A stretch of DNA of 54,943 nucleotides from Chitinophagaceae bacterium (lineage in GTDB: Bacteria; Bacteroidota; Bacteroidia; Chitinophagales; Chitinophagaceae): the NCBI GenBank assembly GCA_903642275.1, contig CAHJWK010000017.1, forward strand, positions 1 to 54,943, given 5' to 3'. The stretch's first letter is position 1. Every line of letters begins with the position of its first letter. Positions 15,613 through 54,943 of the stretch are shown piece by piece. The notes below the pieces were generated by a model, which made no database searches, had not been told where the DNA came from, and saw nothing but the letters and a program-made list of their open reading frames with translations. A program made the position numbers and the translations under genes.

Positions 15613-15720
15613 TTAGAAAAAAAGGATTTTTAAAAATATGCAAAACAGTATTGCTGCAACTGCAAGTGTTACAAGTTTTTCATGTAATGAAATTTTCTTC
15701 CCTGATTTTAAATTATACAT
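15613..15720 (-). CDS. 35-residue single-pass membrane peptide
   Basis: An ATG at 15718-15720 overlaps the end of the Wzc-like gene (ATGTATAA, 8 bases shared), and the frame ends in TAA directly before the ATG of the Wzy-like gene. The peptide starts MYNLKSGKKISLHEKLVTLA and ends with a hydrophobic helix VAAILFCIFLKILFF. The head is basic and the C-terminal half is one membrane helix. The exact packing (8-base overlap upstream, zero gap downstream) argues for a translated gene and not a chance frame. Function is unknown. By position it could help the co-polymerase contact the polymerase. Confidence 0.6.
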   Translation of the reverse strand: MYNLKSGKKISLHEKLVTLAVAAILFCIFLKILFF

Positions 15721-23900: not shown

Positions 23901-24216
23901 CGCCAAGGCCATGAAAGAATACCATCATAGGATATTTCTTACCATCGTTAGCAGTTGGATTATATGTTTTCGGAAATTTTAAACGGAAAGCATATCCTTT
24001 ATATATATATGCTTTGTAAGAACTTGTATTCCACGATAACCTTACTGTTCTTACCCATTTACCAATTTGCCCGTACGCAGGCTGTGTTGGAGGAGTACTT
24101 GAATTATATGTAACAACAGGATCTGTAGGGTCTAAAACAGATTGTGAGAAAACAATACTGCTGTTAATTGCACATGATAAAATAAGGGTAAAAATGTAAA
24201 ACTTTTGCATATACAT
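17911..24216 (-). CDS. Giant T9SS-secreted multidomain esterase-like protein (2101 aa)
   Basis: A signal peptide (1-25) is followed by an alpha/beta-hydrolase/esterase domain (about 60-290) with nucleophile Ser178 in NNGLSDGGQATWG, a likely acidic residue Asp230 and His262 in LGHGTWDRVW. Next come Ig-like segments (about 300-450), FN3 domains (about 455-640), a PA14 domain (about 641-785), more FN3 (about 795-985) and cadherin/Ig-like repeats (about 985-1165). The rest contains three copies of a roughly 170-residue module marked by PWNN, GVYPD/VYPE and a central YNF/YNL core, separated by FN3 and cadherin-like domains. The C-terminal IKAYPNPFINNYNLYVNAN to KILKVVKQ is a type A T9SS sorting domain, so surface attachment or release is expected. 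It heads the operon with the Wzc/Wzy genes, which suggests it deacylates, binds or anchors the polymer. The actual substrate is unknown. Confidence 0.85.
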   Translation of the reverse strand: MYMQKFYIFTLILSCAINSSIVFSQSVLDPTDPVVTYNSSTPPTQPAYGQIGKWVRTVRLSWNTSSYKAYIYKGYAFRLKFPKTYNPTANDGKKYPMMVFFHGLGETGTIYDNEYQLYHGGDVFRDAVDNGKYDGYILCMQSLNYWDPHSYTAITEIIDYMVANNKLDPFWISNNGLSDGGQATWGMLIDHPTYICASVPMSSSSITYENSTLVNTIKFTPMWLFQGGLDGSPAPYTSQQVRNYILAAGGNFTYTEYPDLGHGTWDRVWQEPDFWPFLLRGYASNPWTLYGRTEFCAGDAINVTIGLPPGFDEYLWSNNGVIISGATADSINVKDTGTYSAKVRRGTVWSNWSRTPAHIKIKAPTVTPPITVNGLMSTAIPAPDGKNYVNLQVPDNGYVSYAWKKVGNSSIISTDRIFKVTQAGDYVVSVTEQYGCSSIYSPAFHIINANGTNAPEPAKNLTALTLSNTKIELDWANNPSPAFNETAFEIYRSTIQGASYQFIGQVPADTLTFTDGGLTPNIKYFYIVRAINNNGAAAISNEASASTQSDKTPPTAPANLIALSTTNNSVTLGWDSSTDNVGVVAYDVFVNGIKTNSTTQKSFIVTGLKSLQQYYFYVKARDVSGNTSTQSNQVSAATILQGFSYKYYEGSWNTLPDFNALTPVKTGNTANIDISVRNRDDQFGFVWQGFIKVPIAGTYKFETYSDDGSKIWLGKYDATASPLINNDGLHGGQYVSGTVMLQPGIYPISAAFFEQGGGEVMQLYWTCTALFGDNNRHQIADQYFNDTYTSAGTAPAAPTNFAAAPLDYARIKLSWTDNSNNETGFEIYRSESASGIYVIVGTTSANATLFNDSALLPSTTYYYKIKSINQYGGSALATQKSATTSALPAPPAIATNVKVTVKSSSAISLSWTDNATNETGYSIYRSLSDTLHYKLTTSLPINSTNYLDSGLFAHLTYFYKITVLGVGGTLAKSPTVSGKTKDDAPVITDIASRSVRYGIATAIQVSAADVNGDKLIYSILNKPAFATLINNGDKQTATLTLNPTSAQTGAHNTQIIVNDGNNGKDTTAFTLTVSGNYDPIIDSIANYTITETDSLNVSLTGHDQNNDNLTWSVTGAPANSFLTQSSSNTATLHLRTSYSSSGSYLVDITANDGNGGTAVRQFSLTVNDKNPAKTIFARFMYNDTIGTPWNNITTTTTNNLKDASNSTTNVSLTLQTTWWAAYNGGPQTGNNSGVYPDAVLKDYYYFGIFGGPDSVAAKLSGLDTALKYNLTFYAGSVYSGTGITDNGNTTFTIGGTTVSLYVQNNTKNTVTIYNVKPDVTGSIVFKMGKASNASIGYINALVLNSVYDDGTAPLTPQLISAQTQSNGVKLSWQDIAYNESSYKIFRSTSLSGTYTKIDTTAANVNTYTDITVNGNTQYYYKLQASNKYGNSAFSNVLGVFVVDKAPAIASINNIVIKNNQQLTVNVSATDDAADHVTLKASQLPPFVTFTDNGNGTGKFVIQPTSGTIGYYSGITVTAKDNSDSSASRSFDITVTDAQTSSVYLNFSDGNTNAGKPWNNITTYPSTGATATGIVDQDNVATGISLTFVNGFQGVISTGMRPGNGRTVYPEVVLRAGEYESTTAVRTLRINGLSTTKKYNFVFFNSHEDGLKCLTNFTINGQTVSVDGTYNIDKTVQINNISADANGQVAITVAKGSGADYAFISSLVIQSYDASASILSPADLRITDTKRNAVSLQWQDRSYNETGFQIWRADDSNSTYALLKTVAANTVSYKDLNLTANKSYYYTVKAVTGSVSSNFSNVIVGHTLAYAVYVNFTAAKLAHSPWNNTDAPPQVGLMFNNFYDETDHQTSLSMTDETEFAGDYNQGMNTGNNSGVYPDSVLAESYIVFPGQSGVLNLTGLNVNMKYNFTFTGSAQVTGDINSAYTINDKTVLLDASLNTKGTVTMYDVVPDSNGEVNIIVAPGTATAISALIGAVVIQGFDAASLAIPVAPALQSIAVARTDNAAKKQGLQQNFKDIQIKAYPNPFINNYNLYVNANQNENVNVEMYTMAGKLVYVNKFYNLIKGENTLKIQPNFAATGVYVVRLISENGGQVKILKVVKQ

Positions 24217-26116: not shown

Positions 26117-27259
26117 ATGCGACAAATTACCAATATCCCAGACGAACAACAAACCAATAATCAACAGGTTAATACTGATGCTGAACTCCTTAGCATCAGC
26201 CTCAGTAAAGCATTTAATATGAAAATTTTGATGGTTGGTTGCGATGAAGCAACCAAAGCTAAATTTATTGATGGCGGTTTTGAAATAGCTTGTGTTCGCA
26301 ACATTCATGAAGCAAAAAAAAGCATTCACAATATTCCCGATGGAAGCCTGTTTTTTGACGCCGTTATCTGTGATGCACTGATAGGTAAAAAAAGCATTCT
26401 TCATTTTGCCGGCTATTTATCTTCTACAAAAGTTTTAAATACTATTCCGTTTATTCTTTTTGTAAGCGATAACCAGTTTGATTCTGATATATGTACACAA
26501 TCACAAGGTATTGATGACCTTATTTCCATAGAAACACCTTTAAGCGATCTTTCTGATAAAATCTGGATATTAAAAAAGTATAAAACTTTACAAAGTTCCA
26601 TGCCTTATTCCATTTCTTCTGAAGAAACATCAGGTTTAAACAGGCAATTTGTATTAAAAAGAATTATTGATATTATTATTTCAGGCCTTGCACTTATTAT
26701 TTTATCTCCTCTAATTATTATTATCGCTATCTGTATAAAAGTAGAATCAAAAGGCCCGGTTTTTTATAAGTCCCTGCGTGCCGGTACCGGTTATAAAGTA
26801 TTTACTTTTTTCAAGTTTAGAACAATGGTTGTTAATGCAGAAGATATGGTAAAAGACCTTAAGCATTTGAATGAGTATAAAGGTTACAAAAGCAGTTATT
26901 TTTTTAAGATAAAAGATGATCCGCGGGTAACAAAGGTTGGCCAGTTTTTGCGTAAAACCAGTCTTGATGAAATACCGCAACTGATTAATGTGCTTATCGG
27001 CGATATGAGCCTGGTTGGCAACAGACCACTTCCACTTTACGAAGCTTCAGCTATTACAGTTGATAAATCTGCCAAAAGATTTTTAGCACCTGCAGGTATT
27101 ACTGGTTTATGGCAGGTAAAAGGCAGGTCAAATGCAGATTTATCTGTTGATGAAAGAATAAACATGGATCTTGATTATGCCGACAAGCAATCTCTTTTGC
27201 TGGATATGAAAATTCTACTTAAGACACCAAAAGAGTTAATATTAAAGAATAATGTTTAA
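26117..27259 (+). CDS. Initiating sugar-phosphate transferase with N-terminal pseudo-receiver domain
   Basis: This transfers a hexose-1-phosphate from a nucleotide sugar to undecaprenyl phosphate, the first step of repeat-unit assembly at the inner membrane. Residues about 35-155 resemble a REC domain ([27 protein letters not shown] with Asp86, FILFVSDNQ). The usual Lys is absent (SIETPLSD), so it is probably a degenerate receiver. The membrane helix is at about 184-207, followed by the WcaJ/WbaP catalytic region: [46 protein letters not shown] and [12 protein letters not shown], ending with [12 protein letters not shown]. Standard members have either a CoA-binding-like or no N-terminal domain. 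The gene overlaps the next GT2 gene by 8 bases. Confidence 0.88.
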
Positions 27260-35649: not shown

Positions 35650-36999
35650 TTATGACTTTTTACCACTTAGGATTTTTACCGCTTCTGCATAAACAATTTT
35701 ATAAGAGTTAATTATGTGACTACCTACATTTGAAAGATTAATATCAATTAGTTTTTTCATAGTAAAATACCATATTAAGGCATTAATAACACACGTAATA
35801 AAAGTGCCGATAGCTGCTCCATAGAAACCAAAAATTGTTAAGCATAAATAGTTTAAGCCAAGGTTCATAAGCAAGCTTAAAACATCAAGTTTAAAAACAT
35901 ATTTTGCTTTACCTATTGAATTTAGAGTATTGGCTGCCTGATTTTGCATGGGATTTATTAAGTTAATAATCATATACAACTGTAAAATAGGAACCGCTGC
36001 TACATACTGTGAACCTGCAATTACTGTTATAACAAATTTTGGAAAGATGATAATAAATATTACAATGGGTAAAGTAAAAGAAAGTAGAATGCCGGAGATA
36101 CGTTCGTAGAGGTACTTAACCTTTTCACTACCTTCTTCTACTAAAGCCCGGACTGTTTTTGGAAAAATTATTTGGGCGGCAGCGTAAGATGGTATATCTA
36201 TGAAACCATTTATACGCAAGGCAACATTATAATATGATACATAATAACTCGACATAAATGTGGCTGTCATCAACTGGTCAAAATTTATAAAGATGTTTGA
36301 AATAAGGCCGGAACCAAAAATGTATTTTCCGTAACCCAAAATTTTATTAATCCATTCCTTCTGTATATTAAACTGATAGAGCAAATATTTTTTGGTATAT
36401 ATAAATAATACAATTGCTCCCAAGAAAACACTTACAGATTGATAAATTGCCAGGTATTGTAATGAAAAATCTTTATGCAGAAAAAGGCTTGTAATAATTA
36501 ATATAAAGAAAATAAACTGGCGTACCAGGTAGCCTGCAGATACTCCTTTAAAATCAAGAAAAGATTGTTGTATGGCTTCAAAGTGAGAAAAGAAAACCAT
36601 GCATATTAAACCAGGAATAAACCATTTAAGCATGACACTTAAATTTTCGCTGGCATGAAGTAACATGCTCAACCAACCAGAAAAAAAAAGAATAAAAATT
36701 ATAAATAACAAGCTGATGACAGTATTTATAATAAAAGAAGCAGATGCGATTGCTGACTTTTGATATTCATCGGAACTTGAATTTACATACATGATATGTG
36801 CATTCTTCAATAAACCACTTTTTGTAGCTTCAAAAAGTGTGGTTACGGTTAAAAATAATGCCCACGTTCCCATTTCAGCTTTCGTTAGTACTCTTACCAG
36901 TACCATAAAATTCGTTAATCCAAAAATTACAAGAGAAAACCGCTGAAGGACGGAAAAAAAGGCTGACCGTATCCAGTATGAAGAGAGATATTTACGCAA
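35650..36999 (-). CDS. Wzx-like polysaccharide flippase (MOP superfamily), copy 1
   Basis: This is an inner-membrane protein of 449 residues with about 12-14 helices, predicted to move lipid-linked repeat units across the membrane. The start SYWIRSAFFSVLQRFSLVIF, the LVRVLTKAEMGTWALFLT segment and the C-terminal helices fit the polysaccharide-synthesis MOP family. It is a paralogue of the next gene upstream: the N-terminal pattern YWI(R/K)S(A/G)FFS(V/L)LQ...VR(V/I)L...GTWALF is shared. The two genes are separated by 53 bases. Confidence 0.87.
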   Translation of the reverse strand: MRKYLSSYWIRSAFFSVLQRFSLVIFGLTNFMVLVRVLTKAEMGTWALFLTVTTLFEATKSGLLKNAHIMYVNSSSDEYQKSAIASASFIINTVISLLFIIFILFFSGWLSMLLHASENLSVMLKWFIPGLICMVFFSHFEAIQQSFLDFKGVSAGYLVRQFIFFILIITSLFLHKDFSLQYLAIYQSVSVFLGAIVLFIYTKKYLLYQFNIQKEWINKILGYGKYIFGSGLISNIFINFDQLMTATFMSSYYVSYYNVALRINGFIDIPSYAAAQIIFPKTVRALVEEGSEKVKYLYERISGILLSFTLPIVIFIIIFPKFVITVIAGSQYVAAVPILQLYMIINLINPMQNQAANTLNSIGKAKYVFKLDVLSLLMNLGLNYLCLTIFGFYGAAIGTFITCVINALIWYFTMKKLIDINLSNVGSHIINSYKIVYAEAVKILSGKKS

Positions 37000-37052: not shown

Positions 37053-38408
37053 CTAATTAGTTTGAGTCTTTACCAGGAATAGTTTGAGTTTTTGATAAAG
37101 TTCAGGATAAAATTCAACGGCATATTTAAAAGTATGCAATAAGTTTACTTTCAGTTCTTTTCTTAAAATAATCTGCCCAATAATAAAACCAATAATGGTG
37201 GCTGATAAAGTAGCATAAGCTGCACCAAGCACTCCAAACCTGTGAATAAAAAGATAGTTTAACCCTACATTAATCATAGCTGAAATAAAGACAATAAAAA
37301 AAGTTAAGCGCGTTCTTCCCATTGAATCAAGTAATACACCAAACTGCCTTCCATACGGTACAAATAAACAATAAAATACGGTTACCTTTAAAATAGGAAC
37401 TGCATCTATATATTTTTTGCCTGCAATAAAATGAATTGAAATTGCAGGAAAAAACAACAGGAATAATAAACCCGGAAGTAATATAGCGAGCAGTGTACCA
37501 ACTGATTTTTCATAAAGATACTTTACAGCGGCAGGCCCTTCATTGCCAACGCGTTTCGCGCTTTGGGGAAATACAATGGCTGCAATAGCTCCGGTAGGTA
37601 CGTCAACAAGGTTTGTAATTCGTACAGCAATATTATAGATACCCGCAGCAGCTGCCGATAAATAAGAGCCTAACATCATCTGATCTATACTGCTGAAAAT
37701 TGTAGAACTAACAGAAGTACCAAATGCAAATTTTCCATAGTTGAATAATTTTTTCATCCAACCGGACTGTATCTTAAATGAAATCTGCAGATATTCTTTT
37801 ACAAAAAACCACGATGCAACCATGCATGCTATAACACTTGCTATTTGAACATATACTAAATTAATAAGCAGGATGTGTATATGATGAACGGAGCAAATAA
37901 AAATGTATAGAAAAAAAAGTCCCTGACGTATAAAAGTGGTTACAAAGATGCCATTGAACTGAAGATGCGCCTGCATAATAAACTGGAATTGCGTTACCAC
38001 GCCGGAAATCAAGTACACAAAACTATACAGGTAGAACATTTTTTCAAGCTGTGGAGAATGCCAGCTAAAGCTGATATAATGCGCAAGTAACAGGTTAAGA
38101 AGTATGCATGCAGCTGTAAGTATGCCACTGTTTGCAAATGATGCTGAAATTATTTTATTGTGTTCTTCAACAGGCGATAAGGAAAGGAATCGTATAAGCG
38201 CATTTTGTACAAGACCGTTCCTAATATTTTCAAGTATCGCGGTTGTGGTCATGAACAGCGCCCATGTTCCAAAATCGTTTGTGCTGGGTAATATTCTAAC
38301 TAAAATATAAAAACTGCCAAACCCAAAAATTACATTGAAGAAATTTTGCAGTAGTGAGAAGAAACCTGATTTAATCCAGTAATGATCTTTTATTTCAATC
38401 TTACTCAT
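37053..38408 (-). CDS. Wzx-like polysaccharide flippase (MOP superfamily), copy 2
   Basis: This is a 451-residue MOP-type flippase with about 14 hydrophobic helices. DHYWIKSGFFSLLQNFFNVI and GTWALFMTTTAIL near the N-terminus are typical, as is IDQMMLGSYLSAAAAGIYN in the middle, a segment shared with copy 1 (FDQLMTATFMSSYYVSYYN). It follows the 38418 gene by 9 bases and precedes copy 1 in the same direction. Two Wzx proteins may serve two different lipid-linked substrates. Confidence 0.87.
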   Translation of the reverse strand: MSKIEIKDHYWIKSGFFSLLQNFFNVIFGFGSFYILVRILPSTNDFGTWALFMTTTAILENIRNGLVQNALIRFLSLSPVEEHNKIISASFANSGILTAACILLNLLLAHYISFSWHSPQLEKMFYLYSFVYLISGVVTQFQFIMQAHLQFNGIFVTTFIRQGLFFLYIFICSVHHIHILLINLVYVQIASVIACMVASWFFVKEYLQISFKIQSGWMKKLFNYGKFAFGTSVSSTIFSSIDQMMLGSYLSAAAAGIYNIAVRITNLVDVPTGAIAAIVFPQSAKRVGNEGPAAVKYLYEKSVGTLLAILLPGLLFLLFFPAISIHFIAGKKYIDAVPILKVTVFYCLFVPYGRQFGVLLDSMGRTRLTFFIVFISAMINVGLNYLFIHRFGVLGAAYATLSATIIGFIIGQIILRKELKVNLLHTFKYAVEFYPELYQKLKLFLVKTQTN

Positions 38409-39470: not shown

Positions 39471-41123
39471 TTAACCTTTTCGTAAAGGTATTAAATCAGG
39501 ATATTGTTTAAGATTTTTTACTTTATAAAAGCTTTTGAAATAAGATACTACTGTATCGTAACCAATATAAATTCTTTTTACAGCAATGCCATAGTCAAGT
39601 ATTCCTGGATAAAAATCATACTCGTACAATAAAGCGTATGAATCGAATAGTTCAGAACGCATTTTTGTATAATCAGTATGCGGTAACCAGATAACATCAG
39701 GTTTGTTTTTTTCGATTGAATATAACAATGATTTTTTTTGAAAGATATCATTGTTGTTTAATTGCGAAAGATCGATAATACGCATACTAATATTATCACT
39801 TGCTATAAAACCATCCTCACTTGCTGCTACAACTGTGGTAACGGGAAGTTTTTTCAATAAACTATCAAAAATTAATATTGAAGGCCACCATTCAATTTCA
39901 GGTAATGCATTGGCAGCAAAAAGATTATTATACAGAGAATATTTTTTTGCCTCTTTTGCAGCATGTGTATACAATCTTGTATAATAAGCATCACTGCAAT
40001 AACCAAATATTCTTATAACAGCAATAAAAGATAACAGCAATAAAATTCTATTTTTAAATTCTGTTATCGTTAAAACATCTGGATCTTTATTTAGTGAAAA
40101 TGAATAGGTAAGACTTACTGACAATCCTAAAATAAAAAAAGGAACAAACGGCAAATAATATCTTGAAGCCATACCCATTACCTGCACCACCGTATAAAAA
40201 TATCCATAAGTAAGCAACAACGGAAACCAATAAACAAATGCTTTTTTAATTGCAGGTTTTTTTATAAAGAGTATAAAAATTATTATCAATGCAAAAAAAT
40301 AAATAAAAATATCGTAGAGATATTGTGTAACATTCCATTTATAAATTCCCAGGTAGCCATCGTATAAACCAAATGATTTTATATAGAAAGGAAGGGGAAT
40401 AATATAGCCAAAGTATAAGTATTTAGTAACCGTATCAATCGCCATACAAACAAAGATTATGGAATAAACGATGATAAAAGGCTTTAGCTTACCCGCTTTT
40501 TTCCATAAAAATAATGCCGGGAAAACAATCATACAAATACCATTATCAGGCCGTATAAAAAAAATAAAATAAGATGATAACGCTGCTAAAAAAAGAAATA
40601 AAAGCGATTGCTTTCTATTGTACTGAAGAAATAAAAAAATCATAAAAGAATCACCAAATAAAGACATGGTGGTATCCATCCCGCTAAAGAGATTATTAAT
40701 AAACACAGGCATAAATAATATTAGCAGGGTAATAAGTTGAGGCCAATAAACTTTCTTAAGCACAGAATTATTTGTAACAATCTTTAAAGATTTGTACATA
40801 TATACCAGTGCAAGTATTCCCCAGAAAAAAGAAGAAAACTTTAAAACAATTTCATCACCCGCAAATGATTTGGGAAAAATTGATTCTATAAAAGTTACAA
40901 AAAGCATATAGCCAATGCTTGTACAGCCATAAGTTCTTTCACCTGCATTCCATCCAAAATTATGGTTAACAAGAAAGTTTTTTGCATACCGGGTAAACAT
41001 ATATGCATCATCAAAACTAAGTGGCAGCAATGCCGCTTTGTAAATGAAATACAACACTATTAGCAGCATCAGGCCAAAAAAAAATTTTACAATAATGTTT
41101 TGGTACGAATAACTTAAGGTCAT
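39471..41123 (-). CDS. AftB-like GT-C glycosyltransferase
   Basis: This is a polytopic membrane enzyme of 550 residues with about 11 helices and a C-terminal soluble part. The first external loop reads LSFDDAYMFTRYAKNFL (acidic pair 38-39), then FGWNAGERTYGCTSIGYML (61-69 is GERTYGCTS). This DD...GERxxGxTS pattern is characteristic of AftB-type arabinofuranosyltransferases and related GT-C enzymes that use polyprenyl-phospho sugars. With the UbiA/DprE1/DprE2-like genes at 48-51 kb it is a candidate pentofuranosyltransferase. It runs divergently from the plus-strand esterase gene. Confidence 0.75.
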   Translation of the reverse strand: MTLSYSYQNIIVKFFFGLMLLIVLYFIYKAALLPLSFDDAYMFTRYAKNFLVNHNFGWNAGERTYGCTSIGYMLFVTFIESIFPKSFAGDEIVLKFSSFFWGILALVYMYKSLKIVTNNSVLKKVYWPQLITLLILFMPVFINNLFSGMDTTMSLFGDSFMIFLFLQYNRKQSLLFLFLAALSSYFIFFIRPDNGICMIVFPALFLWKKAGKLKPFIIVYSIIFVCMAIDTVTKYLYFGYIIPLPFYIKSFGLYDGYLGIYKWNVTQYLYDIFIYFFALIIIFILFIKKPAIKKAFVYWFPLLLTYGYFYTVVQVMGMASRYYLPFVPFFILGLSVSLTYSFSLNKDPDVLTITEFKNRILLLLSFIAVIRIFGYCSDAYYTRLYTHAAKEAKKYSLYNNLFAANALPEIEWWPSILIFDSLLKKLPVTTVVAASEDGFIASDNISMRIIDLSQLNNNDIFQKKSLLYSIEKNKPDVIWLPHTDYTKMRSELFDSYALLYEYDFYPGILDYGIAVKRIYIGYDTVVSYFKSFYKVKNLKQYPDLIPLRKG

Positions 41124-42316: not shown

Positions 42317-44011
42317 ATGCGTTACCATTTAACTGCTTTTTTTAAACATTTTTTTATTTTTTCAATAGTTATCTTTTGTGTAACACTCGTTGAATTTTTT
42401 TATTTAGGGAAGCCCTTAACAGGAATTGATGATGCAAATATTTTTTTAAACTATGCGCATCATTTCTCAAATGGAGAAGGTTTTGTTTACAATACGCACG
42501 GTGAAAGAGTAGAAGGCTTTACATCTATGCTTTGGGTATTAATATGTGCAGCGTTCTTTCTCTTATCTGCGCATCCTGAATTTATTCTGCTTATTATATG
42601 TTTCTTACTTACCGTTACAACCGTAACATTCGCTTATGAAGAAGTAAGCAAAGATGTGAAACAGCTAAACGAATCTTTTTATAAAAAGCATTTTTTATGG
42701 CTGTACACCGTTTTTCTAATATGTATCGGCCCTCTATATTTTGCCTGGTCAGTGTTAAGCTTAATGGAAAATGCCTTATGGAATTTTCTTTTTACAACCC
42801 TTGTTATTTCAATTCTTCAATACAGTAAAACAAATATTTCTTTACTCAAAAAAACAATAGTTTGTTTATTAGCCATTTTACTGGTACTTACAAGGCCGGA
42901 AGCATATGCATGGAATATTTTATTTTTTTTCCTGTTTATAATTATAACCATAAAAAATAAAAGAAGCGTTCTTTTTTCATTAGCTTATTTAATTCTTTCC
43001 ATAACTGCCATACTTTTTATGGCAAATTTTCGAATACACTATTTTGGTTATCCTTTACCCAATACATATTATGCTAAGGTATCTCCTGATAAATTTTATA
43101 ACATTAAGGAAGGTTTGATTTATGCAATAAATTTTATTACCGATTCTCACCCTGTAATAATTCTTTTTATAACTGCTTTACTTGTTGTAACGGTAAGTTT
43201 ACTTCTAAACAAAAAATTTAAGCTGCAAAGCCCGACTGAAATCGGAATTTTAATAATTACTCTGATAATATGCATTTCGTTGTGTTTGCCGCTTACTACA
43301 GGTGGAGATCATTTTGCAGGCTTCCGGTTTTACCAGGATATTATATTATTATCTGTGTGGGCAATACCTGCCATGCTTATTATACACAGAGATGCAGTTT
43401 TTAACAGGTTTAAATATGCAATTCTATCCTGGCAGCTTATTGCAATTATTTTTTTTGTATTTATTGGCAGCGGAACGCTTTTTAATTTGAAACATCCTTT
43501 GCAAACACAATTAAATTATGAATTTGATTTTGCAAATACTGAACGCATTATGGGTGAAGACATGAATGACGTTTGGCGGGATTCTGCGCAGCGCCCTTCA
43601 GTGGGTGTTATTTTTGCAGGTGGCTTTGCATTGAAATATAATGGAACTACAATTGACTTAATGGGTCTAAACAATACTTTGATGGGTCATAGCAGCGGAG
43701 ATAGAATCGGAATAAAAAATCATGCAGCGTTTAATAAGTTAGTTTTTTATAAGTTAAATCCGGATATAATTCTTCCTGAACAGGTAACAAGCGATAAACA
43801 AGCTTATATTGAATATGTACAGTTGTTAAGTGAAGAGAATTTTTTTAATAAAGCCATGAAAAATATTTTTAATGATCTTGCTTTTCAGCAGAATTATTAT
43901 CCTGTTACAATCACAAATAAATTAAACAGAAATAAAATTTTCTTGTTTGCCAACAAAGATTTTTATCAAGAACTACAGAAAAATAATTTATTGCAACTCA
44001 AAAACCTATAA
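42317..44011 (+). CDS. AftB-like GT-C glycosyltransferase
   Basis: This is a polytopic membrane enzyme of 564 residues. The first external loop is LTGIDDANIFLNYAHHF (acidic pair 38-39) followed by GEGFVYNTHGERVEGFTSML (GERVEGFTS at 62-70). That is close to the GERVEGYTSPLW region I know from mycobacterial AftB and similar pentofuranosyltransferases. A C-terminal soluble domain (about 400-564) follows 10-11 helices, with RPSVGVIFAGGFALKYNG and IDLMGLNNTLMG. It lies 124 bases after the esterase gene and 25 bases before the lipoprotein gene. Substrate is inferred to be a lipid-linked furanose. Confidence 0.78.
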   Translation: MRYHLTAFFKHFFIFSIVIFCVTLVEFFYLGKPLTGIDDANIFLNYAHHFSNGEGFVYNTHGERVEGFTSMLWVLICAAFFLLSAHPEFILLIICFLLTVTTVTFAYEEVSKDVKQLNESFYKKHFLWLYTVFLICIGPLYFAWSVLSLMENALWNFLFTTLVISILQYSKTNISLLKKTIVCLLAILLVLTRPEAYAWNILFFFLFIIITIKNKRSVLFSLAYLILSITAILFMANFRIHYFGYPLPNTYYAKVSPDKFYNIKEGLIYAINFITDSHPVIILFITALLVVTVSLLLNKKFKLQSPTEIGILIITLIICISLCLPLTTGGDHFAGFRFYQDIILLSVWAIPAMLIIHRDAVFNRFKYAILSWQLIAIIFFVFIGSGTLFNLKHPLQTQLNYEFDFANTERIMGEDMNDVWRDSAQRPSVGVIFAGGFALKYNGTTIDLMGLNNTLMGHSSGDRIGIKNHAAFNKLVFYKLNPDIILPEQVTSDKQAYIEYVQLLSEENFFNKAMKNIFNDLAFQQNYYPVTITNKLNRNKIFLFANKDFYQELQKNNLLQLKNL

Positions 44012-47957: not shown

Positions 47958-48578
47958 TTAATAAGCTTTTTTACGGAATGGTTTATAAAATTTATGGGTT
48001 GATAAAGCAAGCATCGGTAAATCACCTTTTGTATCGCCATAAGCATAAATATCAGAGTAACTGTTAAGCTGGTAGTTGTTTGAAATGTGATTAACTTTTT
48101 CCTGTCCGTAACAATTACGACCAGAAATTTTACCTGTTAATTTATTATTTTTTATTTCAAGGCAGGTTGCAATACAATCTATATTATATTGATCACACCA
48201 AGGCTTTACCCAATTAACAGGAGATGCAGAAACCACAACAACTTTTGTCTTGTTTTCAATATGATCTCTTATTGCCCTTAATGCTTCTTTTCTTAATAAT
48301 GATGGTAATTTATTCTTTGTAAAATCTTCGCAAATTGTATTAAAGTTTGGTAGTAACATGCCTTTAAAAAAATAGCGCAGCATTATTTCTTTTGCCTTGT
48401 GATTTGATAACCACTTAAGTTTATAAGCAATAATTACAGGAGATAAAATAATTAATCCGGTGTAATAAGCAAATTTACCCTTAGCAAATTTTATAATCTC
48501 TGCAAGCGTATCTTTTGATGTAATTGTTCCATCAAAATCAAAAAAAGCAATTGAAGGTTTTGAATTAATGTTATTCAT
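47958..48578 (-). CDS. HAD-family phosphatase of the lipid-linked pentofuranose operon
   Basis: This is a HAD-IB-type hydrolase of 206 residues. Motif I is AFFDFDGTIT (Asp14 nucleophile, Asp16), then VVVVSASPVNWVK (motif II Ser) and the C-terminal YAYGDTKGDLPMLALS (motif IV acidic residues). Substrate by context: removal of the 5-phosphate from polyprenyl-phosphoryl-5-phosphoribose. In mycobacteria a PAP2-type protein (Rv3807c) does this; HAD proteins are found in this place in other bacteria. That assignment is inference from the operon: it follows the DprE2-like gene by 2 bases and is the last gene before a terminator. Confidence 0.75.
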   Translation of the reverse strand: MNNINSKPSIAFFDFDGTITSKDTLAEIIKFAKGKFAYYTGLIILSPVIIAYKLKWLSNHKAKEIMLRYFFKGMLLPNFNTICEDFTKNKLPSLLRKEALRAIRDHIENKTKVVVVSASPVNWVKPWCDQYNIDCIATCLEIKNNKLTGKISGRNCYGQEKVNHISNNYQLNSYSDIYAYGDTKGDLPMLALSTHKFYKPFRKKAY

Positions 48579-48580
48579 AT

Positions 48581-49312
48581 TTATAGCCTAAGCTTTTTAA
48601 AAAAGCCTTCAGGAATAGTTTTAATAGTAAGCATAATCCAGCGCCACATCCATTTTACATAAATCACATTTTTTTTATTTTTTATAGCTGAAGCAACGGC
48701 ATCAGCAACCACTTCCGGTGTTGCAGTTAGTAATGGTGGAAGTTTTAAGTCAGCTGTCATTTTTGTATAAACAAACCCAGGCAGCACTGTTATTACATTC
48801 ACACCATATTGATGCATGCTGTTTCTTAATCCGGATAAATAAGCAGTGAAACCTGCTTTTGCGCTGCCGTATATATAATTACTTTGCCTGCCTCTTTCGC
48901 CTGCAACAGAACTCACTCCCACTATGACGCCGCTCTTTTTTTCAGCATAGTAATTTGCAACAATATTTAAAATTGATACAGCACCAGTATAATTACTGTT
49001 AATAATCTTTGCTGATTCCTGCCACTCCTGTCCTGCAACTTTATTATCACTCATATAACCAAAAACGCAGATAGTTATATCTGGTTTAACCGGTAACGAT
49101 TCAAAGAAAGATAAATGCAAATTAAAATCTGTTGCATCAAACTCATGAACAGTACAGTCAATGTTATAGCGCACTTTTAAATCAGATTGCAACGGAGCAA
49201 GCCTTGCTGCATTTCTTGAAGCAAGCTGAATATTATTTCCCTGCGCTGCCATTTTTCTTGCAATGGCAACAGCCATATCAGAAGTGGCGCCTAACAATAA
49301 AACAGTTGACAT
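48581..49312 (-). CDS. dprE2: DprE2-like short-chain reductase (polyprenyl-P-2-ketoribose reductase)
   Basis: This is a Rossmann-fold short-chain dehydrogenase of 243 residues. It has the nucleotide-binding turn VLLLGATSDMAVAIARKMA, SRNAARL (cofactor ribose side), VGVSSVAG with the catalytic Ser, and YIYGSAKAG (Tyr and Lys of YxxxK), then VLPGFVYTKMT. The C-terminal basic/hydrophobic end (VKWMWRWIMLTIKTIPEGFF) is the same kind of membrane-touching tail that DprE2 proteins carry. In mycobacteria DprE2 reduces the 2-keto intermediate made by DprE1 to the arabino epimer using NADH. It follows the DprE1-like gene by 2 bases and precedes the HAD gene by 2 bases, which supports the role. Confidence 0.82.
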   Translation of the reverse strand: MSTVLLLGATSDMAVAIARKMAAQGNNIQLASRNAARLAPLQSDLKVRYNIDCTVHEFDATDFNLHLSFFESLPVKPDITICVFGYMSDNKVAGQEWQESAKIINSNYTGAVSILNIVANYYAEKKSGVIVGVSSVAGERGRQSNYIYGSAKAGFTAYLSGLRNSMHQYGVNVITVLPGFVYTKMTADLKLPPLLTATPEVVADAVASAIKNKKNVIYVKWMWRWIMLTIKTIPEGFFKKLRL

Positions 49313-49314
49313 AA

Positions 49315-50649
49315 TTAAAGCTGTGGTGTTAATAACCGGTCTGATTGAACAGAGCGGATTTTTCTTTTCGGATTGTATTGGTCCACAATTTTCTTAAAAT
49401 CATTAAGACGTGGGTAACCAGCCTGCAAAACTTCCGGTTTCATGCGGGCGTCTTTACTCATGTATAAACGTCCGCCATATTTTAAAACGATGTTATCCAG
49501 TTCATCCAAAAATTCAAACAAGCCATCCCTCACAGGAAAATCGAGCGCCAGTGTATATCCTTCTGTTGGAAATGAAATCATACTTTCCTGCTTTCCAAAA
49601 ACCTTTAGCACTGCAAGAAAAGAGCCGAGACCTGCATCACTTATACGATGCAAGATTTCAATCAGGCCTTGCTTCGATTCAAGTGGTAATACGAATTGAT
49701 ATTGAATAAAACCTTTTTTTCCATAACCACGATTCCAGTTAAGAATTGCATCTAACGGATAAAAAAAAGGTTCATAACTAACTACATTTTTTATTTCTCT
49801 TTTAAAATTTTTGCCATAATATAAAAAGTTGAAAAGCTTAACTGTAAAACTATTCAACACCCATGAAGGCAGGTTAATTGGAAACGGAATACTTTTTTTT
49901 GCAGGCAACTTTAGCGGATCAATTTTAAATTTTTCAGGCAATTCATCAACTTTTGCATGTTCACCTAAAATAAGAATGCTTCTTCCAAAGTGTTCACCTT
50001 TTTTTAAACAATCAATCCATGCAACCGAATATGTATAATGACTGTATTCATCAAACAAACGAATAACCTCATCAAGATTTTGCGCCTTAATTTGTTTTTG
50101 TTTGATGTATGAAGTTTCAATTTTCTTCAACCTGAATTTTATTCTTATTATTAAGCCGGTTAAACCCATTCCGCCGCAGGTTGCTTCAAACAAATCAGCA
50201 TGTTGTATTGATGAACAAATGATAGTACTGCCATCAGACAATATCAATTCCATCTCAACAATATGATTTGAAAATGATCCATCAACGTGATGATTTTTAC
50301 CATGAACATCACTGCCAACAGCGCCACCAACTGTTATAAATTTTGTGCCTGGAGTAACAGGAAGAAACCAGCCTTTTGGAACAATAAACTCCAAAATTTT
50401 ATCAAATGTAAGACCACTTTGACATTCCAATACACCATTCTTTGTATCGAATGAAAGCACCTTATCATATTTAAGTGTGCTGATTGTTTGTTCAGATAAA
50501 GATGCATCACCATAACAGCGGCCATTACCTCTTGGAATAAAATGATCGCTTTCTTTAACCAGTTTTTGTAACTGATCATCAAAACTAAAAAGTTGTTCAT
50601 CACTTTCCATTACCGGGTAATTACCCCAGTTCGCAATCTTTTTTTTCAC
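49315..50649 (-). CDS. dprE1: DprE1-like FAD-dependent polyprenyl-P-ribose 2-oxidase
   Basis: This is a vanillyl-alcohol-oxidase-type FAD enzyme of 444 residues. IPRGNGRCYGDAS (FAD binding), PVTPGTKFITVGGAVGSDVH followed by GKNHHVDGS (His at about 120) and the C-terminal GGRLYMSKDAR (Lys399, matching catalytic Lys418 of mycobacterial DprE1) are characteristic. From family knowledge, mycobacterial Cys387, the benzothiazinone target, lies 31 residues before Lys418. Here the residue at the same spacing is Ala368 in YTLALDFPVRDG. The enzyme would oxidise C2 of polyprenyl-phosphoryl-ribose. It is 10 bases after the UbiA gene and 2 bases before the DprE2 gene. Confidence 0.88.
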   Translation of the reverse strand: MKKKIANWGNYPVMESDEQLFSFDDQLQKLVKESDHFIPRGNGRCYGDASLSEQTISTLKYDKVLSFDTKNGVLECQSGLTFDKILEFIVPKGWFLPVTPGTKFITVGGAVGSDVHGKNHHVDGSFSNHIVEMELILSDGSTIICSSIQHADLFEATCGGMGLTGLIIRIKFRLKKIETSYIKQKQIKAQNLDEVIRLFDEYSHYTYSVAWIDCLKKGEHFGRSILILGEHAKVDELPEKFKIDPLKLPAKKSIPFPINLPSWVLNSFTVKLFNFLYYGKNFKREIKNVVSYEPFFYPLDAILNWNRGYGKKGFIQYQFVLPLESKQGLIEILHRISDAGLGSFLAVLKVFGKQESMISFPTEGYTLALDFPVRDGLFEFLDELDNIVLKYGGRLYMSKDARMKPEVLQAGYPRLNDFKKIVDQYNPKRKIRSVQSDRLLTPQL

Positions 50650-50659
50650 GCTAAACTGT

Positions 50660-51589
50660 TTACTTAAAAATAGAAATATCAGGAGTATAAATAATTACAT
50701 AAAAACTTAAAACCCAAAGTAACAATGTTATTTGCAGAAACCTGTCTTTATATAAAAGCTTTGTAGGTGAACCGGTGTTATTTTCAACAAATGTTATCTG
50801 TAGGTAACGAAGCAAACCAGCAATAACAAATAGCGCAGTATAATATAAACGATATGTTTTCCAGCGCTCCATCACCTCAGGCGAAATTGTATAAATTAAA
50901 TATGCTACAATTATGATAGCTGCAAGCAAAGACATAACAACATTCATAAATTCAAGATTATACCCTTTGATTGATTTACGCATATCCTGACCTGATTGTA
51001 ATTTAATAAGCAGGTCATCTCTTCTTTTTGCAGCAGCCATAAAAAATGCAAGCAGGAAAAACATGATCATTAACCATTGAGATACTGCGATAGATGTAAT
51101 AACACCACCTGCTTTTACACGCAATACAAACCCGACAGATAAAAGAATGATATCAAGTATTGAAATATTTTTTAAACCAAGTGAGTAACCAAGATTTATA
51201 AAGAAGTAAATAAATAAAACAAAGATGAATTTTGGCATCAATAATAATGATATGCCAACACCGGCAATAAAACAGAGTATACACATCACTATTCCAGCTT
51301 GTTTTGATATTACACCTGAGGCAAGTGGCCGTTTACATTTTTCAGGATGTATTTTGTCTGACTCGATGTCTTTATAATCATTTAAAATATAAATACAGCT
51401 TGCCATTAAGCTGAATGCTAAAAAACCAATGCCTGTATTTAATAATTTTTCAATGTTGAAAATTTCTCCGCCAAAAAATAATGGCAGGAACAAGAACAGG
51501 TTTTTAATCCAGTGATGCGGCCGCATTAATTTTATATACGGCAATGGTGACTGCACCCTACTTTTATGTAATTGGCCTGAAATAAGCAT
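50660..51589 (-). CDS. UbiA-family polyprenyl-phosphate phosphoribosyltransferase-like
   Basis: This is a polytopic UbiA prenyltransferase-fold protein of 309 residues with about nine helices. RPHHWIKNLFLFLPLFFGGE precedes the metal site NDYKDIESD (Asn70, Asp71, Asp74, Asp78), followed by HPEKCKRPLASG, typical of the mycobacterial DPPR synthase group (Rv3806c). The second region AAAKRRDDLLIKLQSG replaces the usual DxxxD and also fits this group. The reaction would be PRPP plus polyprenyl phosphate to polyprenyl-phosphoryl-5-phosphoribose at the inner membrane. Gene order UbiA, DprE1, DprE2, HAD with 10, 2 and 2 bases between them supports this over a menaquinone or heme role. Confidence 0.83.
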   Translation of the reverse strand: MLISGQLHKSRVQSPLPYIKLMRPHHWIKNLFLFLPLFFGGEIFNIEKLLNTGIGFLAFSLMASCIYILNDYKDIESDKIHPEKCKRPLASGVISKQAGIVMCILCFIAGVGISLLLMPKFIFVLFIYFFINLGYSLGLKNISILDIILLSVGFVLRVKAGGVITSIAVSQWLMIMFFLLAFFMAAAKRRDDLLIKLQSGQDMRKSIKGYNLEFMNVVMSLLAAIIIVAYLIYTISPEVMERWKTYRLYYTALFVIAGLLRYLQITFVENNTGSPTKLLYKDRFLQITLLLWVLSFYVIIYTPDISIFK

Positions 51590-51618: not shown

Positions 51619-52284
51619 TTATATAACATCGCTTTTATAAACGATATTAAAATATTCTTTTTTCGCGCCGGTTATTTTTTCCCAACTATCCGTTTCAGGA
51701 TTATACTGTTTAATAATTTTTGCAGGATTACCCGCAACAATTGTAAAAGGTGGAACATCTTTCGTAACCACGCTCCCACCCGCAACTACTGCATGTTTGC
51801 CAATAGTAACGCCGGAAGTAATTACAACGTTGGTTCCAATCCAGCAATCATCTTCAATGACTACTTCTGCAACATTGCATTTCTGGTCACGAATAGGTGT
51901 ATGTACATCTACATAGCCATGATTCAAACCTGATATACCAACATGTTGTGCTGTGATAACATTGTTGCCGATTGTTACAGGACCAGTTAAAACACTGCCA
52001 ATACCAATCATGCAATTGTTGCCGATTGTTACATCTCCCATGCCATTATTAATGCAGCTAAAACTTTCAATGATTGTTTTATAACCGATGGAAAATTTTC
52101 TGAAAGGCATTACATCAATTCTTGTGTATCGTCTGATTTTTGCGCCTTTACCTTTCTTATGCATGAATGGATTTAAAATATTTCTTACCCACCATCTTGG
52201 CCGTGCAGAACCTACAGGCATTAAAAGATTAAGTGTAAAATTTTTTAACCGCGGATTGCTTTGTATTTTTTCTTCTAATTTCAA
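51619..52284 (-). CDS. Hexapeptide-repeat O-acetyltransferase (WbbJ/WcaF-like)
   Basis: This is a left-handed beta-helix acyltransferase of 221 residues. Repeated [ILV]GxxxxI units such as VTIGNNCMIGIGSVLTGPVT, IEDDCWIGTNVVITSGVTIG and KHAVVAGGSVVTKDVPPFTI are followed by VAGNPAKIIKQYNPE. A likely catalytic His lies in AQHVGISGLNHGYV. These enzymes acetylate sugar hydroxyls with acetyl-CoA. The gene overlaps the preceding glycosyltransferase by 4 bases, and 29 bases separate it from the UbiA-like gene. The acceptor is unknown. Confidence 0.86.
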   Translation of the reverse strand: MKLEEKIQSNPRLKNFTLNLLMPVGSARPRWWVRNILNPFMHKKGKGAKIRRYTRIDVMPFRKFSIGYKTIIESFSCINNGMGDVTIGNNCMIGIGSVLTGPVTIGNNVITAQHVGISGLNHGYVDVHTPIRDQKCNVAEVVIEDDCWIGTNVVITSGVTIGKHAVVAGGSVVTKDVPPFTIVAGNPAKIIKQYNPETDSWEKITGAKKEYFNIVYKSDVI

Positions 52285-53519
52285 TTTGATAAAGTTTTAT
52301 TGATTGCAGCATAAATTCTTTCAACGGCTTTTTCCCAAGTATGGGATTCAGCCAATTGAATTCTCTCCTCTTTTAACGTATCACTATCAGTGACCAATGC
52401 TTCTGCAATTGCTTTTGGATAATCTGCTGGCTTTTCAGGCAGAAATACATTTCCACGAAACATTTCCATTGCATTAGTTCTTGTTGCAACAACAGGTTTA
52501 CCCATTGCCAGGTATTCATCAATCTTTAAAGGATAGTTTACGATAGTTATATCATTAATTGCCTGCGGATTAATACATACATCAATCGCCTGCATATAAG
52601 AAGGCAAAGCGCTTACTGGCTTTTTGCCTAAGAAATATATATTTGAAAAATCATTAAGCTGATCTTTCTCTTTAAATAAATCATAAGGACCAACTAAAGC
52701 AATGCTATAGTCAGGGAAAGCTTTTGCTATTGTCTTAATTATTTCAACATCTATGCGTAATGATGTAAGTACACCAACATAACCAATGATTGGACGGTGA
52801 AGATTTTTCATATCCTCCGGCACATCAAGCTTCTTTCTTCCATCGAATAGTTCAATGTTGCAACCCATGCCGAAATAATGCGAGTTAATACTATGCTTTA
52901 GTGAATAATCAGTAAGTGATGTTGAATTTGCAACAGTAAGATCAGATTTTGCAATAAGTTCTGCTTCAAGCTGCACACCATGTTTCTTCCAGTAATCAAC
53001 ACCTAACAAATTATCACGGTTACAATAGATGTAAAGTTTTGGTTTTAAAAATTCTTTTAAATAAAATGATCTGAATATATCATTATCATTAAAAATTATA
53101 AAGTCTTTAAACTTCAACCTCTCAATCGCCACTTTAATATCTGCAGCAAATTTTTTATTATTTCTTTTATTGATGATTGAAAAAATGCTTGTTGAAGGTA
53201 TCCAATTTATGGATTCTATTTTAGTGGTTGGATAATAGTTCCAGATGTTGTTTTCAACCTCAAAAAGTGTTTCACTTTTGTTGTTTATAATGTCAAGATG
53301 CTGTTTGATATTGATATCATCTTTACTATACAAAAGTGTTTTTCTGTCAAGCGGAGCATTCACATACAAAACTCTGTTATGCCTTGCAAATTCATGTGCA
53401 ATATTTTTACAGGTGCTGCCAATATCAGTGTACCATTGTTGAGAGCTGACAATAATAATATCAGCACCATTAATAACAGGTGATTTTTTAATTGGTTTTC
53501 CTGGAGCTTGTACTTGCAT
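52281..53519 (-). CDS. GT-B glycosyltransferase (GT4-like)
   Basis: This 412-residue protein has ADIIIVSSQQWYTDIGSTCK at the N-terminus and a donor side with RPIIGYVGVLTSLRIDVEII, SIALVGPYDLF, LGKKPVSALPSYMQAIDVCI and NYPLKIDEYLAMGKPVVATR, in which the second glutamate of the EX7E motif is recognisable. This group is often annotated as glycosyltransferase family 1 in exopolysaccharide loci. It is second in the 54356-47958 operon: 21 bases after the oxygenase gene and overlapping the acetyltransferase gene by 4 bases. Confidence 0.85.
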   Translation of the reverse strand: MQVQAPGKPIKKSPVINGADIIIVSSQQWYTDIGSTCKNIAHEFARHNRVLYVNAPLDRKTLLYSKDDINIKQHLDIINNKSETLFEVENNIWNYYPTTKIESINWIPSTSIFSIINKRNNKKFAADIKVAIERLKFKDFIIFNDNDIFRSFYLKEFLKPKLYIYCNRDNLLGVDYWKKHGVQLEAELIAKSDLTVANSTSLTDYSLKHSINSHYFGMGCNIELFDGRKKLDVPEDMKNLHRPIIGYVGVLTSLRIDVEIIKTIAKAFPDYSIALVGPYDLFKEKDQLNDFSNIYFLGKKPVSALPSYMQAIDVCINPQAINDITIVNYPLKIDEYLAMGKPVVATRTNAMEMFRGNVFLPEKPADYPKAIAEALVTDSDTLKEERIQLAESHTWEKAVERIYAAINKTLSN

Positions 53520-53540: not shown

Positions 53541-54356
53541 TTAATTTTTTGCCTTATTTAAACCATGTAACAATATTGGTGGCGTAACCAACCTAACTGT
53601 TTCTTTTAAAGTGTTTAAAATTTTTGATTTTTTATCTTCTTTCCTGTATTTGAAAAGTGTGTTATGATCAGCTTCGCTTACTGATTGTTCTTCAACAGGC
53701 CTTCCATTTGTATAATAATATAAAGCGAGTGATTTTCTTGATCTGCCTTCAGGGCAATGTACAGTATTTGGATTGCCATGATAAGAAGTGCTTGTGGTTG
53801 AGAACATCGCCATACGGTTAAAAACGGGCAAAATAGATTTGCGGCAATCTTTCATATCAACATCCCACAACTCAAACTGTCCTCCATATTCTTCTTTCCA
53901 ATCTTCATTTAAATATATAAGTACATTAAGCCTTCTGTCTAATTTTGTTCTTGGATGTTTATTAAAATCAGCGTGAATTTTTAACATGCCGCCCGGTTGA
54001 ATCTGATGCATTCCGCCACCGTCATAATTAGGATCAGGAATAAGATTATCTATACCTGTTAGTTCTGTGAGAAATTCAAGAAATGGTTGAGAATTTAAGT
54101 AATGCATAAACTCTTTTGTTTTTTCACCAAAACGGTATTCACCTTTTGAGGCGAGCTTAACCTGGTTCGCATCATTGTATTTTAAATCAGGATTTTTAGA
54201 CATGTCGGGAAACTCTCCAAGCACATCTTTCAACATCTGTTCATTAAAAAAATTATCGAAGTAAATGCTTGGAAAAGGGTCGGCTGTTGCATAAGCCGTT
54301 TTATATTCGTTGCCAAAATTTTTTAGTTCTTCAGTGGATTTGTTTATAAAGTTCAT
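53541..54356 (-). CDS. 2-oxoglutarate/Fe(II)-dependent oxygenase (prolyl hydroxylase-like)
   Basis: This is a jelly-roll oxygenase of 271 residues. The iron triad is His128-x-Asp130 (KIHADFN) and His193 (SYHGNPN); Arg205 or Arg207 (EGRSRKSLALYYY) would bind 2-oxoglutarate. LNVLIYLNEDWKEEYGGQFE is typical of the Tpa1/prolyl 4-hydroxylase-like group. Proteins like this occur in polysaccharide loci, where the target may be a sugar or a protein side chain; the substrate is unknown here. It is the first gene of the operon carrying the pentofuranose genes and lies 155 bases from a divergent GT-C gene. Confidence 0.85.
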   Translation of the reverse strand: MNFINKSTEELKNFGNEYKTAYATADPFPSIYFDNFFNEQMLKDVLGEFPDMSKNPDLKYNDANQVKLASKGEYRFGEKTKEFMHYLNSQPFLEFLTELTGIDNLIPDPNYDGGGMHQIQPGGMLKIHADFNKHPRTKLDRRLNVLIYLNEDWKEEYGGQFELWDVDMKDCRKSILPVFNRMAMFSTTSTSYHGNPNTVHCPEGRSRKSLALYYYTNGRPVEEQSVSEADHNTLFKYRKEDKKSKILNTLKETVRLVTPPILLHGLNKAKN

Positions 54357-54511
54357 TGTAATTTATTTTAATTAAATGCGTTTTACGATACTAAATTAGC
54401 ACTGATTACACTTCTGAACAAACGAGTTTAGTAAACATTTAAATTAATCTGCTGTTCGTTGGGTTTTTTTGGTTAAACGAAAGGGATAATTGAAATAAAA
54501 AACTTTTACGG

Positions 54512-54943
54512 TGATAATAAAATCTAATTCCTCTAAGCATTTCTGGCTGGGCAAAGCTGATATTTTCATCATTCTTGCATTTTGTTCTTTGCCTCTGTTC
54601 TTAAGCTTTCCTTATCGCGTGAACATTTTTCTATCATGGGAAGGTGCTTACAGGTTATATCTCGGCGAAGTTCCATACAAAGATTTTGGCTTGCCCATGG
54701 GTCTTATGTTCTGGGTAATGCCAGCCTTATTTTTTAAAATTTTTGGGCCTTATTTTTTAAGTCTTATAAAAGCGCAGGTATTATTAAACCTGCTTTGTTG
54801 CTTTTCCCTACGCGGAATTTTACAGAAACTTAAACTTGATAATGCACTGCGCATAATTGTAATACTTGTGCTTTGTTTATCTTATATATTAATAAACTTC
54901 TGGCCATGGTATAACAACACTGATATCATTTACGAGATTGCAG
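54512..54943 (+). CDS. GT-C family membrane glycosyltransferase (N-terminal part only)
   Basis: A GTG at 54512-54514 follows an in-frame TAA at 54497 and opens a frame that runs off the window (144 codons). It reads IIKSNSSKHFWLGKADIFII with a first helix, then FLSWEGAYRLYLGEVPYKDF, GLPMGLMFWVMPALFF and further helices. The external-loop acidic position (WEGAY) and YKDFGLPMG resemble PMT/ArnT-like GT-C enzymes. It is divergent from the oxygenase gene. Start choice is moderate: no ATG is near the N-terminus. Confidence 0.68.

Follow-up and report, generated by a model that had tools for sequence, protein, structure and literature searches.

The 54,943-nucleotide stretch of DNA analyzed here (the window) is the whole of contig 17 (CAHJWK010000017.1) of a Chitinophagaceae bacterium assembly (GCA_903642275.1; 4.29 Mb in 213 contigs), and its positions 47958–51589 hold four minus-strand open reading frames (ORFs) spaced by 10, 2, and 2 bases. 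These four genes very probably make polyprenyl-phosphoryl-D-arabinofuranose, a sugar donor for GT-C enzymes that would act outside the membrane. The pathway is familiar chiefly as a target of tuberculosis drugs; here, its genes form a compact cassette that is common in a large environmental phylum, the Bacteroidota. The first-pass annotation of the window had described the same four tightly packed genes, with coordinates, strand, and gaps that match ours exactly, and its assignment of them to the route toward polyprenyl-phosphoryl-D-arabinofuranose is supported by active-site residues that, where tested, are largely kept.

50660–51589, minus strand: UbiA-fold protein (309 aa), predicted polyprenyl-phosphate 5-phosphoribosyltransferase that would convert phosphoribosyl pyrophosphate (PRPP) to polyprenyl-P-ribose-5-P
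49315–50649, minus strand: DprE1-like FAD oxidase (444 aa, GTG start), predicted 2-oxidation
48581–49312, minus strand: DprE2-like SDR reductase (243 aa), predicted 2-reduction
47958–48578, minus strand: HAD-IB phosphatase (206 aa), predicted polyprenyl-P-ribose-5-phosphate 5-phosphatase

The UbiA protein carries the marks of a PRPP-dependent phosphoribosyltransferase, as had been proposed for it. Its top match in the Protein Data Bank (PDB) is 8j8j, the decaprenyl-phosphate phosphoribosyltransferase of M. tuberculosis (E = 5.9e-42), with chlorophyll synthase at E = 6.7e-7 in the same sequence search. In Rv3806c, the residues R22, K87, R90, K143, Y138, K28, Y70, and Y157 are described as contacts of the pyrophosphate and 5'-phosphate of PRPP, and Y157 is replaced by phenylalanine in some mycobacteria (PMC10994848). 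Residues were mapped on Rv3806c via the 8j8j alignment, from which the Asn and Asp numbers were read off in this analysis. R22, K28, Y70, N73, D74, D77, D81, K87, R90, Y138, K143, and K208 are all identical in the window protein, and Y157 is a phenylalanine. Across 71 aligned rows (70 relatives plus the window), every tested residue is invariant except at position 157, which is F in 67 rows, and position 208, which is K in 49. The rows of this alignment and of those for DprE1, DprE2, and HAD are ORFs scoring above 60 bits from 80 named loci, together with the window; the named loci are the best 80 of 570 DprE1 relatives, and all 80-locus counts rest on these. As a separate observation, UbiA lies next to or near a gene resembling methylmalonyl-CoA mutase by eye in six loci (L200–L205), four of whose genomes have no DprE1 match, with G271 and G306 each having one.

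The identity of the DprE1-like protein likewise held up. Its top PDB match is 4aut (E = 3.7e-88), and 18 of 23 positions mapped through this M. smegmatis enzyme (M. tuberculosis number plus 7) are identical, including the equivalents of K134, K367, and K418. The position list was taken in part from PMC4366402, which states the offset of 7 for C387 and K418. When 12 of the positions were followed across 81 rows, nine were invariant, and the other three favored F at 314 (78 rows), T at 385 (68 rows), and A at 387 (78 rows). C387 and K418 of DprE1 are described as involved in benzothiazinone binding (PMC4366402), and the window protein, like 78 of the 81 rows, has alanine in place of that cysteine. 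Natural DprE1 sequences with alanine at the benzothiazinone-binding Cys position therefore exist, and insensitivity of such enzymes to benzothiazinones would be expected. The nearest named relatives of the window DprE1 are mostly from Chitinophagaceae (82 to 74% identity). A tree of the window protein, the 80 named proteins, and a fragment from M. smegmatis places the window within Chitinophagaceae; the mycobacterial fragment has a very long branch, and its position is uncertain. This grouping gives no indication that the cassette was recently acquired from mycobacteria. Because the Bacteroidota label requires four changes on the tree, at least three of them forced by well-supported branches, transfer or paralogy in the history of DprE1 is possible.

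DprE2 is similarly well placed, in keeping with its earlier labeling as DprE2-like. Its top PDB match is an annotated DprE2 reductase (21gq_C, E = 9.5e-34), the next SDR follows at E = 2.4e-15, and the protein passes the NF005489 model (323.2 bits against a cut-off of 267). The catalytic triad described for DprE2 as S147, Y160, and K164 (PMC4366402) is present as S135, Y148, and K152 in all 75 aligned rows. A single 832-aa ORF of a Cloacimonadota bin (L137:6560–9058) encodes both DprE1 and DprE2, in support of a joint action of the two proteins.

The fourth protein passes the HAD model TIGR01490 (127.1 bits against a cut-off of 98.3) and lacks a close solved relative, a PDB sequence search returning one weak match to an uncharacterized protein (E = 0.0029). 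Its DxD motif is present in 54 of 54 rows, and the GDxxxD aspartates are found in 53, the remaining row being gapped there. In these lineages, gene neighborhoods link this phosphatase to the UbiA step, because UbiA–HAD pairs occur without DprE1 and the two domains are often fused. Among 14 loci examined for this purpose, UbiA and HAD are adjacent in three from genomes without a DprE1 match (L196, L198, and L199), and in two others (L206 and L207), from genomes with such a match, the UbiA–HAD pair stands apart from DprE1–DprE2; in most of the other DprE1-less loci of this set, no HAD adjoins UbiA. Fusion of HAD to UbiA is seen in 29 of 83 DprE1-centered loci, a count that includes the window and considers genes on the same strand within 5 kb, some loci ending at contig ends. 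The window HAD is accordingly predicted to be a 5-phosphatase acting on polyprenyl-P-ribose-5-P. The first-pass annotation had placed a HAD enzyme at the 5-dephosphorylation step, and this part is supported; in its view, the enzyme appears to take the place of a PAP2 phosphatase. Any novelty of such a replacement is not supported, since a fusion of UbiA to a HAD phosphoribose phosphatase domain has already been described, as has a Pseudomonas syringae protein that carries the phosphatase domain C-terminally (PMC11127046).

Conservation of gene order provides a further line of evidence. The order UbiA–DprE1–DprE2–HAD recurs in 52 of the 80 named loci, with every gap at most 200 bases in 44, and the cassette is therefore not a chance arrangement; the survey for other such operons that had been suggested thus found them. 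These loci come mostly from Chitinophagaceae and Weeksellaceae (for example, Chryseobacterium), and looser versions of the cassette occur in Campylobacterota (L182, L188, and L192), a Methylococcaceae bin, and Desulfamplus. In a sample of 395 Bacteroidota genomes, in which DprE1 was called at E ≤1e-20 and UbiA at E ≤1e-15, a DprE1 homolog is present in 82 genomes and UbiA in 138. UbiA accompanies DprE1 in 81 of these 82 genomes (the exception being G157), compared with 57 of 313 genomes without DprE1; these co-occurrence counts and their p-values treat genomes as independent, relatedness being ignored. Within the genus of the window, DprE1 exceeds 420 bits in six of eight genomes, its own included, and the remaining two, which are 63 and 66% complete, have weak DprE1 matches only. 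The pathway had been called uncommon outside mycobacteria, and the number of Bacteroidota genomes with DprE1, together with its spread over several phyla, shows this to be wrong. The arrangement does vary: among the 83 DprE1-centered loci, UbiA, DprE2, and HAD are separate genes in 12, and in 5 the UbiA is long and lacks the DxDGT motif. In favor of the assignment, the c4 gene discussed below, UbiA, DprE2, and HAD remain together in G253, where DprE1 lies on a separate contig.

Family membership, active-site residues, and the conservation of gene order can be read from the sequences themselves; we infer the substrates, the product, the order of the steps, the flipping, and the acceptor to be as follows. 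UbiA would convert PRPP to polyprenyl-P-ribose-5-P, from which HAD would then strip the 5-phosphate. DprE1 would oxidize C2 of the lipid-linked ribofuranose, and DprE2 would give the arabino epimer by reducing the resulting 2-keto sugar. The donor would be flipped across the membrane, with two MOP proteins as candidate flippases, and outside the membrane, either the c4 protein or the AftB-related proteins could use it to decorate the surface polysaccharide of the locus.

54511–54943, plus strand: c4 GT-C-fold membrane protein, N-terminal 144 aa, cut by the contig end; divergent from the gene run that contains the cassette; candidate donor user
42317–44011, plus strand: AftB-related GT-C protein (three-protein profile A1)
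39471–41123, minus strand: AftB-related GT-C protein (profile A1)
11680–13293, minus strand: AftB-related GT-C protein (profile A1), the least like 42317–44011 (21% identity)
35650–36999, minus strand: MOP/Wzx-type flippase, candidate donor or repeat-unit exporter (PF13440, 70.6 bits)
37053–38408, minus strand: MOP/Wzx-type flippase, candidate donor or repeat-unit exporter (PF13440, 84.9 bits; MatE, 32.2 bits)

The c4 membrane-protein family is the lead for a user of the donor. The truncated window ORF scores 225.8 bits against the family hidden Markov model, and 21 further loci out of 162 contain c4 genes, some of these loci sharing a genome. Among 27 clustered named loci, 16 have c4, and in 12 of these it directly adjoins UbiA on the opposite strand; in the genome sample, c4 is found in 7 of 395 genomes from two families, all 7 of which have DprE1 and UbiA. 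Three members gave no Pfam match over threshold and four gave no NCBIfam match, and a single chance-level Pfam match was to GldL_N (E = 0.014). Since the c4 profile also found no GT-C enzyme by sequence, its only match being a sulfotransferase that we disregarded (E = 0.046), a fold search had to decide the identity of the family. A model built from 22 sequences (pLDDT 80.6, pTM 0.85) has GT-C enzymes as all 23 of its best PDB matches, including AftD, ArnT, AftA, and AftB; seven of these have E ≤0.001, and all have modest TM-scores of 0.29 to 0.50 by query length. The modeled structure is that of a GT-C fold, and the 22-sequence alignment shows no variation at W48, E49, G50, A51, R53, and D63. 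The c4 proteins may be enzymes that use the pentofuranose donor, and we regard the family as a likely user. The stronger proposal is that c4 is a new GT-C arabinofuranosyltransferase family dedicated to polyprenyl-phosphoryl-D-arabinofuranose, with which relatives in Chitinophagaceae and Cytophagales would make a D-arabinofuranose surface glycan not described before; on this we are close to evenly divided, if anything slightly against. A further c4 gene, its 5' end cut by a contig start, is present in the same assembly (G000:C103:1–1512, L210); over 304 bases, its identity to the end of the window is 87%, and it is either a paralog or a strain variant of the window copy.

The AftB-related proteins were said to lie in the same locus as the cassette. 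Their likeness to AftB is borne out, and their place is elsewhere in the window, outside the gene run. Profile A1, built from the three proteins, has one PDB match, AftB (9dlf, E = 6.8e-8), which covers residues 39–297; the alignment is confined to the N-terminal part and amounts to 35 bits. The 42317–44011 protein by itself gave no PDB match up to E = 10 with phmmer, and its single-sequence model was too poor for use (mean pLDDT 41.3). By eye, D62, described as the catalytic aspartate of AftB (PMC12041299), aligns with a conserved DD that is kept in all three window proteins. The equivalents of T91 and E172 are T/T/S and E/D/E, respectively, and arginine is found for R221 in all three, that of the third protein in a different A1 column. 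The profile matches 38 of the 395 genomes at E ≤1e-15 (the first pass scoring at most three candidates per genome), of which 37 have UbiA and 22 have DprE1. Because 15 of the 16 without DprE1 still have UbiA, these genes go with the polyprenyl-P-pentofuranose step, not with arabinose specifically. Against this association, 60 of the 82 DprE1 genomes lack an AftB-related gene at the same threshold.

Several results weigh against the assignment of the four genes to a complete arabinofuranose pathway. UbiA passes only one of three NCBIfam models, NF008978 (208.8 bits, cut-off 207), missing NF008977 (228.1 against 234) and NF008976 (179.6 against 474). DprE1, at 431.7 bits, is under the equivalog cut-off of 500 for NF053785, and DprE2, at 199 bits, is under that of 250 for NF053786. 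The DprE1 cut-off is reached by none of 59 relatives and by 1 of 14 control genomes, from which we infer that it was set for actinobacterial enzymes. Five of the 23 DprE1 positions deviate from the mycobacterial enzyme (S228V, Y314F, G321L, N385T, and C387A). Finally, the four-gene set is not universal, because 18 of the 83 DprE1-centered loci have a short UbiA with no HAD found, and no UbiA was found in another 19, of which 3 have HAD. One rival reading, for which the five DprE1 differences speak, is that the product remains a ribofuranose or 2-keto sugar, or is another epimer, in which case the glycan would contain not arabinofuranose but ribofuranose or some other D-pentofuranose. A genome of the same family, G391, has no DprE1 match and carries a UbiA–HAD pair without DprE1 or DprE2 (L196), and an accessory epimerase is described as determining the sugar (PMC11127046). 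In the window, however, DprE1 and DprE2 are both present and adjacent with their tested catalytic residues kept, and DprE2 matches its mycobacterial namesake much more closely than it does the other solved SDRs; we consider this outcome improbable.

Scarcely credible is the suggestion that UbiA is an ordinary prenyltransferase of the quinone, heme, or chlorophyll type in a chance neighborhood. Weaker superfamily matches to such families exist, yet the 8j8j match exceeds that to chlorophyll synthase by many orders of magnitude, the PRPP contacts K28, Y70, K87, R90, and K143 are kept in 71 of 71 rows, and UbiA is nearly always present where DprE1 is. A grouping with menaquinone or heme enzymes, which the first-pass annotation had singled out as fatal to the assignment, was looked for, and the retained PRPP contacts led us to reject a quinone or heme enzyme. 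The synthesis of polyprenyl-phosphoryl-D-arabinofuranose remains the preferred reading, and within it the user of the donor is less clear. The c4 family could be the sole user, the AftB-related genes of the window working with other polyprenyl-linked sugars, a serious alternative that we nonetheless lean against. The frequency of c4 in the clustered loci speaks for it, as does the finding that single searches with the three AftB-related proteins recovered just two relatives from the flanking regions of 162 loci. On the other hand, AftB-related genes co-occur with UbiA in all but one of their 38 genomes, one adjoins UbiA in L205, and the AftB donor-contact residues, as read by eye, appear largely kept in the window proteins.

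Much of this chemistry is already known, the HAD route from Citrobacter (PMC11127046) and the arabinose branch from mycobacteria and Pseudomonas. The window shares with the mycobacterial pathway (Rv3806c, Rv3807c, and DprE1/DprE2) a homologous phosphoribosyltransferase, DprE1, and DprE2, the same expected chemistry, and AftB-related GT-C genes. It differs in that its four genes form one cassette, DprE1 has alanine at position 387, and the phosphatase is of the HAD-IB type, whereas Rv3807c is described as unrelated to HAD phosphatases (PMC11127046). The three-component systems of Citrobacter youngae O1 and O2 also pair UbiA with a HAD phosphoribose phosphatase to give polyprenyl-P-ribofuranose, followed by epimerization, flipping, and GT-C transfer onto a surface polysaccharide, and the Citrobacter UbiA–HAD protein makes the lipid-linked ribofuranose in vitro (PMC11127046). 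Unlike the window, these systems combine HAD and UbiA in one protein, O2 makes xylofuranose with a GalE-like SDR as its epimerase, and the GT-C enzyme belongs to GT136 (PMC11127046). The same paper reports DprE1/DprE2 homologs in candidate systems for glycans containing D-arabinofuranose, and its main text contains no word beginning with "bacteroid". Other nonmycobacterial arabinose routes with mycobacteria-like genes are the D-arabinofuranose pilin glycosylation of Pseudomonas PA7/Pa5196 (PSPA7_6245–6251) and noeCHOP of Azorhizobium (PMC12369383, PMC2443382), and the Pseudomonas system likewise has a separate phosphatase (PMC11127046). The acceptor is pilin in Pseudomonas and the Nod factor in Azorhizobium, whereas the surroundings of the window resemble an exopolysaccharide locus. 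To this known chemistry, our analysis adds a separate-HAD cassette in Bacteroidota, a linked GT-C family, and a seven-gene run. No report of the pathway in Bacteroidota was found among the papers listed in our searches of a largely open-access literature. The cassette is common in its phylum and would make a lipid-linked pentofuranose, most likely D-arabinofuranose. Glycans with D-arabinofuranose, or at least a D-pentofuranose, are thus predicted in Chitinophaga, Chryseobacterium, and their relatives; none of the open-access papers listed in the searches describes them.

The seven-gene run arises from three genes that precede UbiA on the same strand, separated in turn by 21 bases, a 4-base overlap, and 29 bases. 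These genes, and two others of the surroundings, which include several glycosyltransferases, are as follows.

53541–54356, minus strand: 2OG-Fe(II) oxygenase (PF13640), which opens the run
52281–53519, minus strand: GT4-type glycosyltransferase (PF13692), same run
51619–52284, minus strand: hexapeptide acyltransferase (PF00132/PF14602), same run, 29 bases before UbiA
26117–27259: phosphoglycosyltransferase by its best NCBIfam model, score under cut-off
15713–17890: Wzc-type autokinase by its best NCBIfam model, score under cut-off

Relatives of the GT4 protein lie near the cassette in 5 other loci of 162 (phmmer), and the oxygenase has a single relative among them, in L122. A dedicated MATE-family flippase is a component of three-component pentofuranose systems; in the window, the two MOP/Wzx proteins lie about 10–12 kb from the cassette and none lies within the run. 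No conserved flippase for the relatives of the window was seen near the cassette when the cluster list of the 27 named loci was read through. In L113, UbiA and DprE1 are separated by a gene for a 134-aa membrane protein (10672–11076) that is GtrA-like by eye and recurs in seven loci; it is a possible flippase there, and the window run has no such protein. Large secreted esterase-like proteins are encoded near the cassette in 9 of the 27 clustered loci, one of which (L114:7243–9159) has PKD domains and a type IX secretion system sorting tail, and the protein at 17911–24216 of the window was likened to them by eye only.

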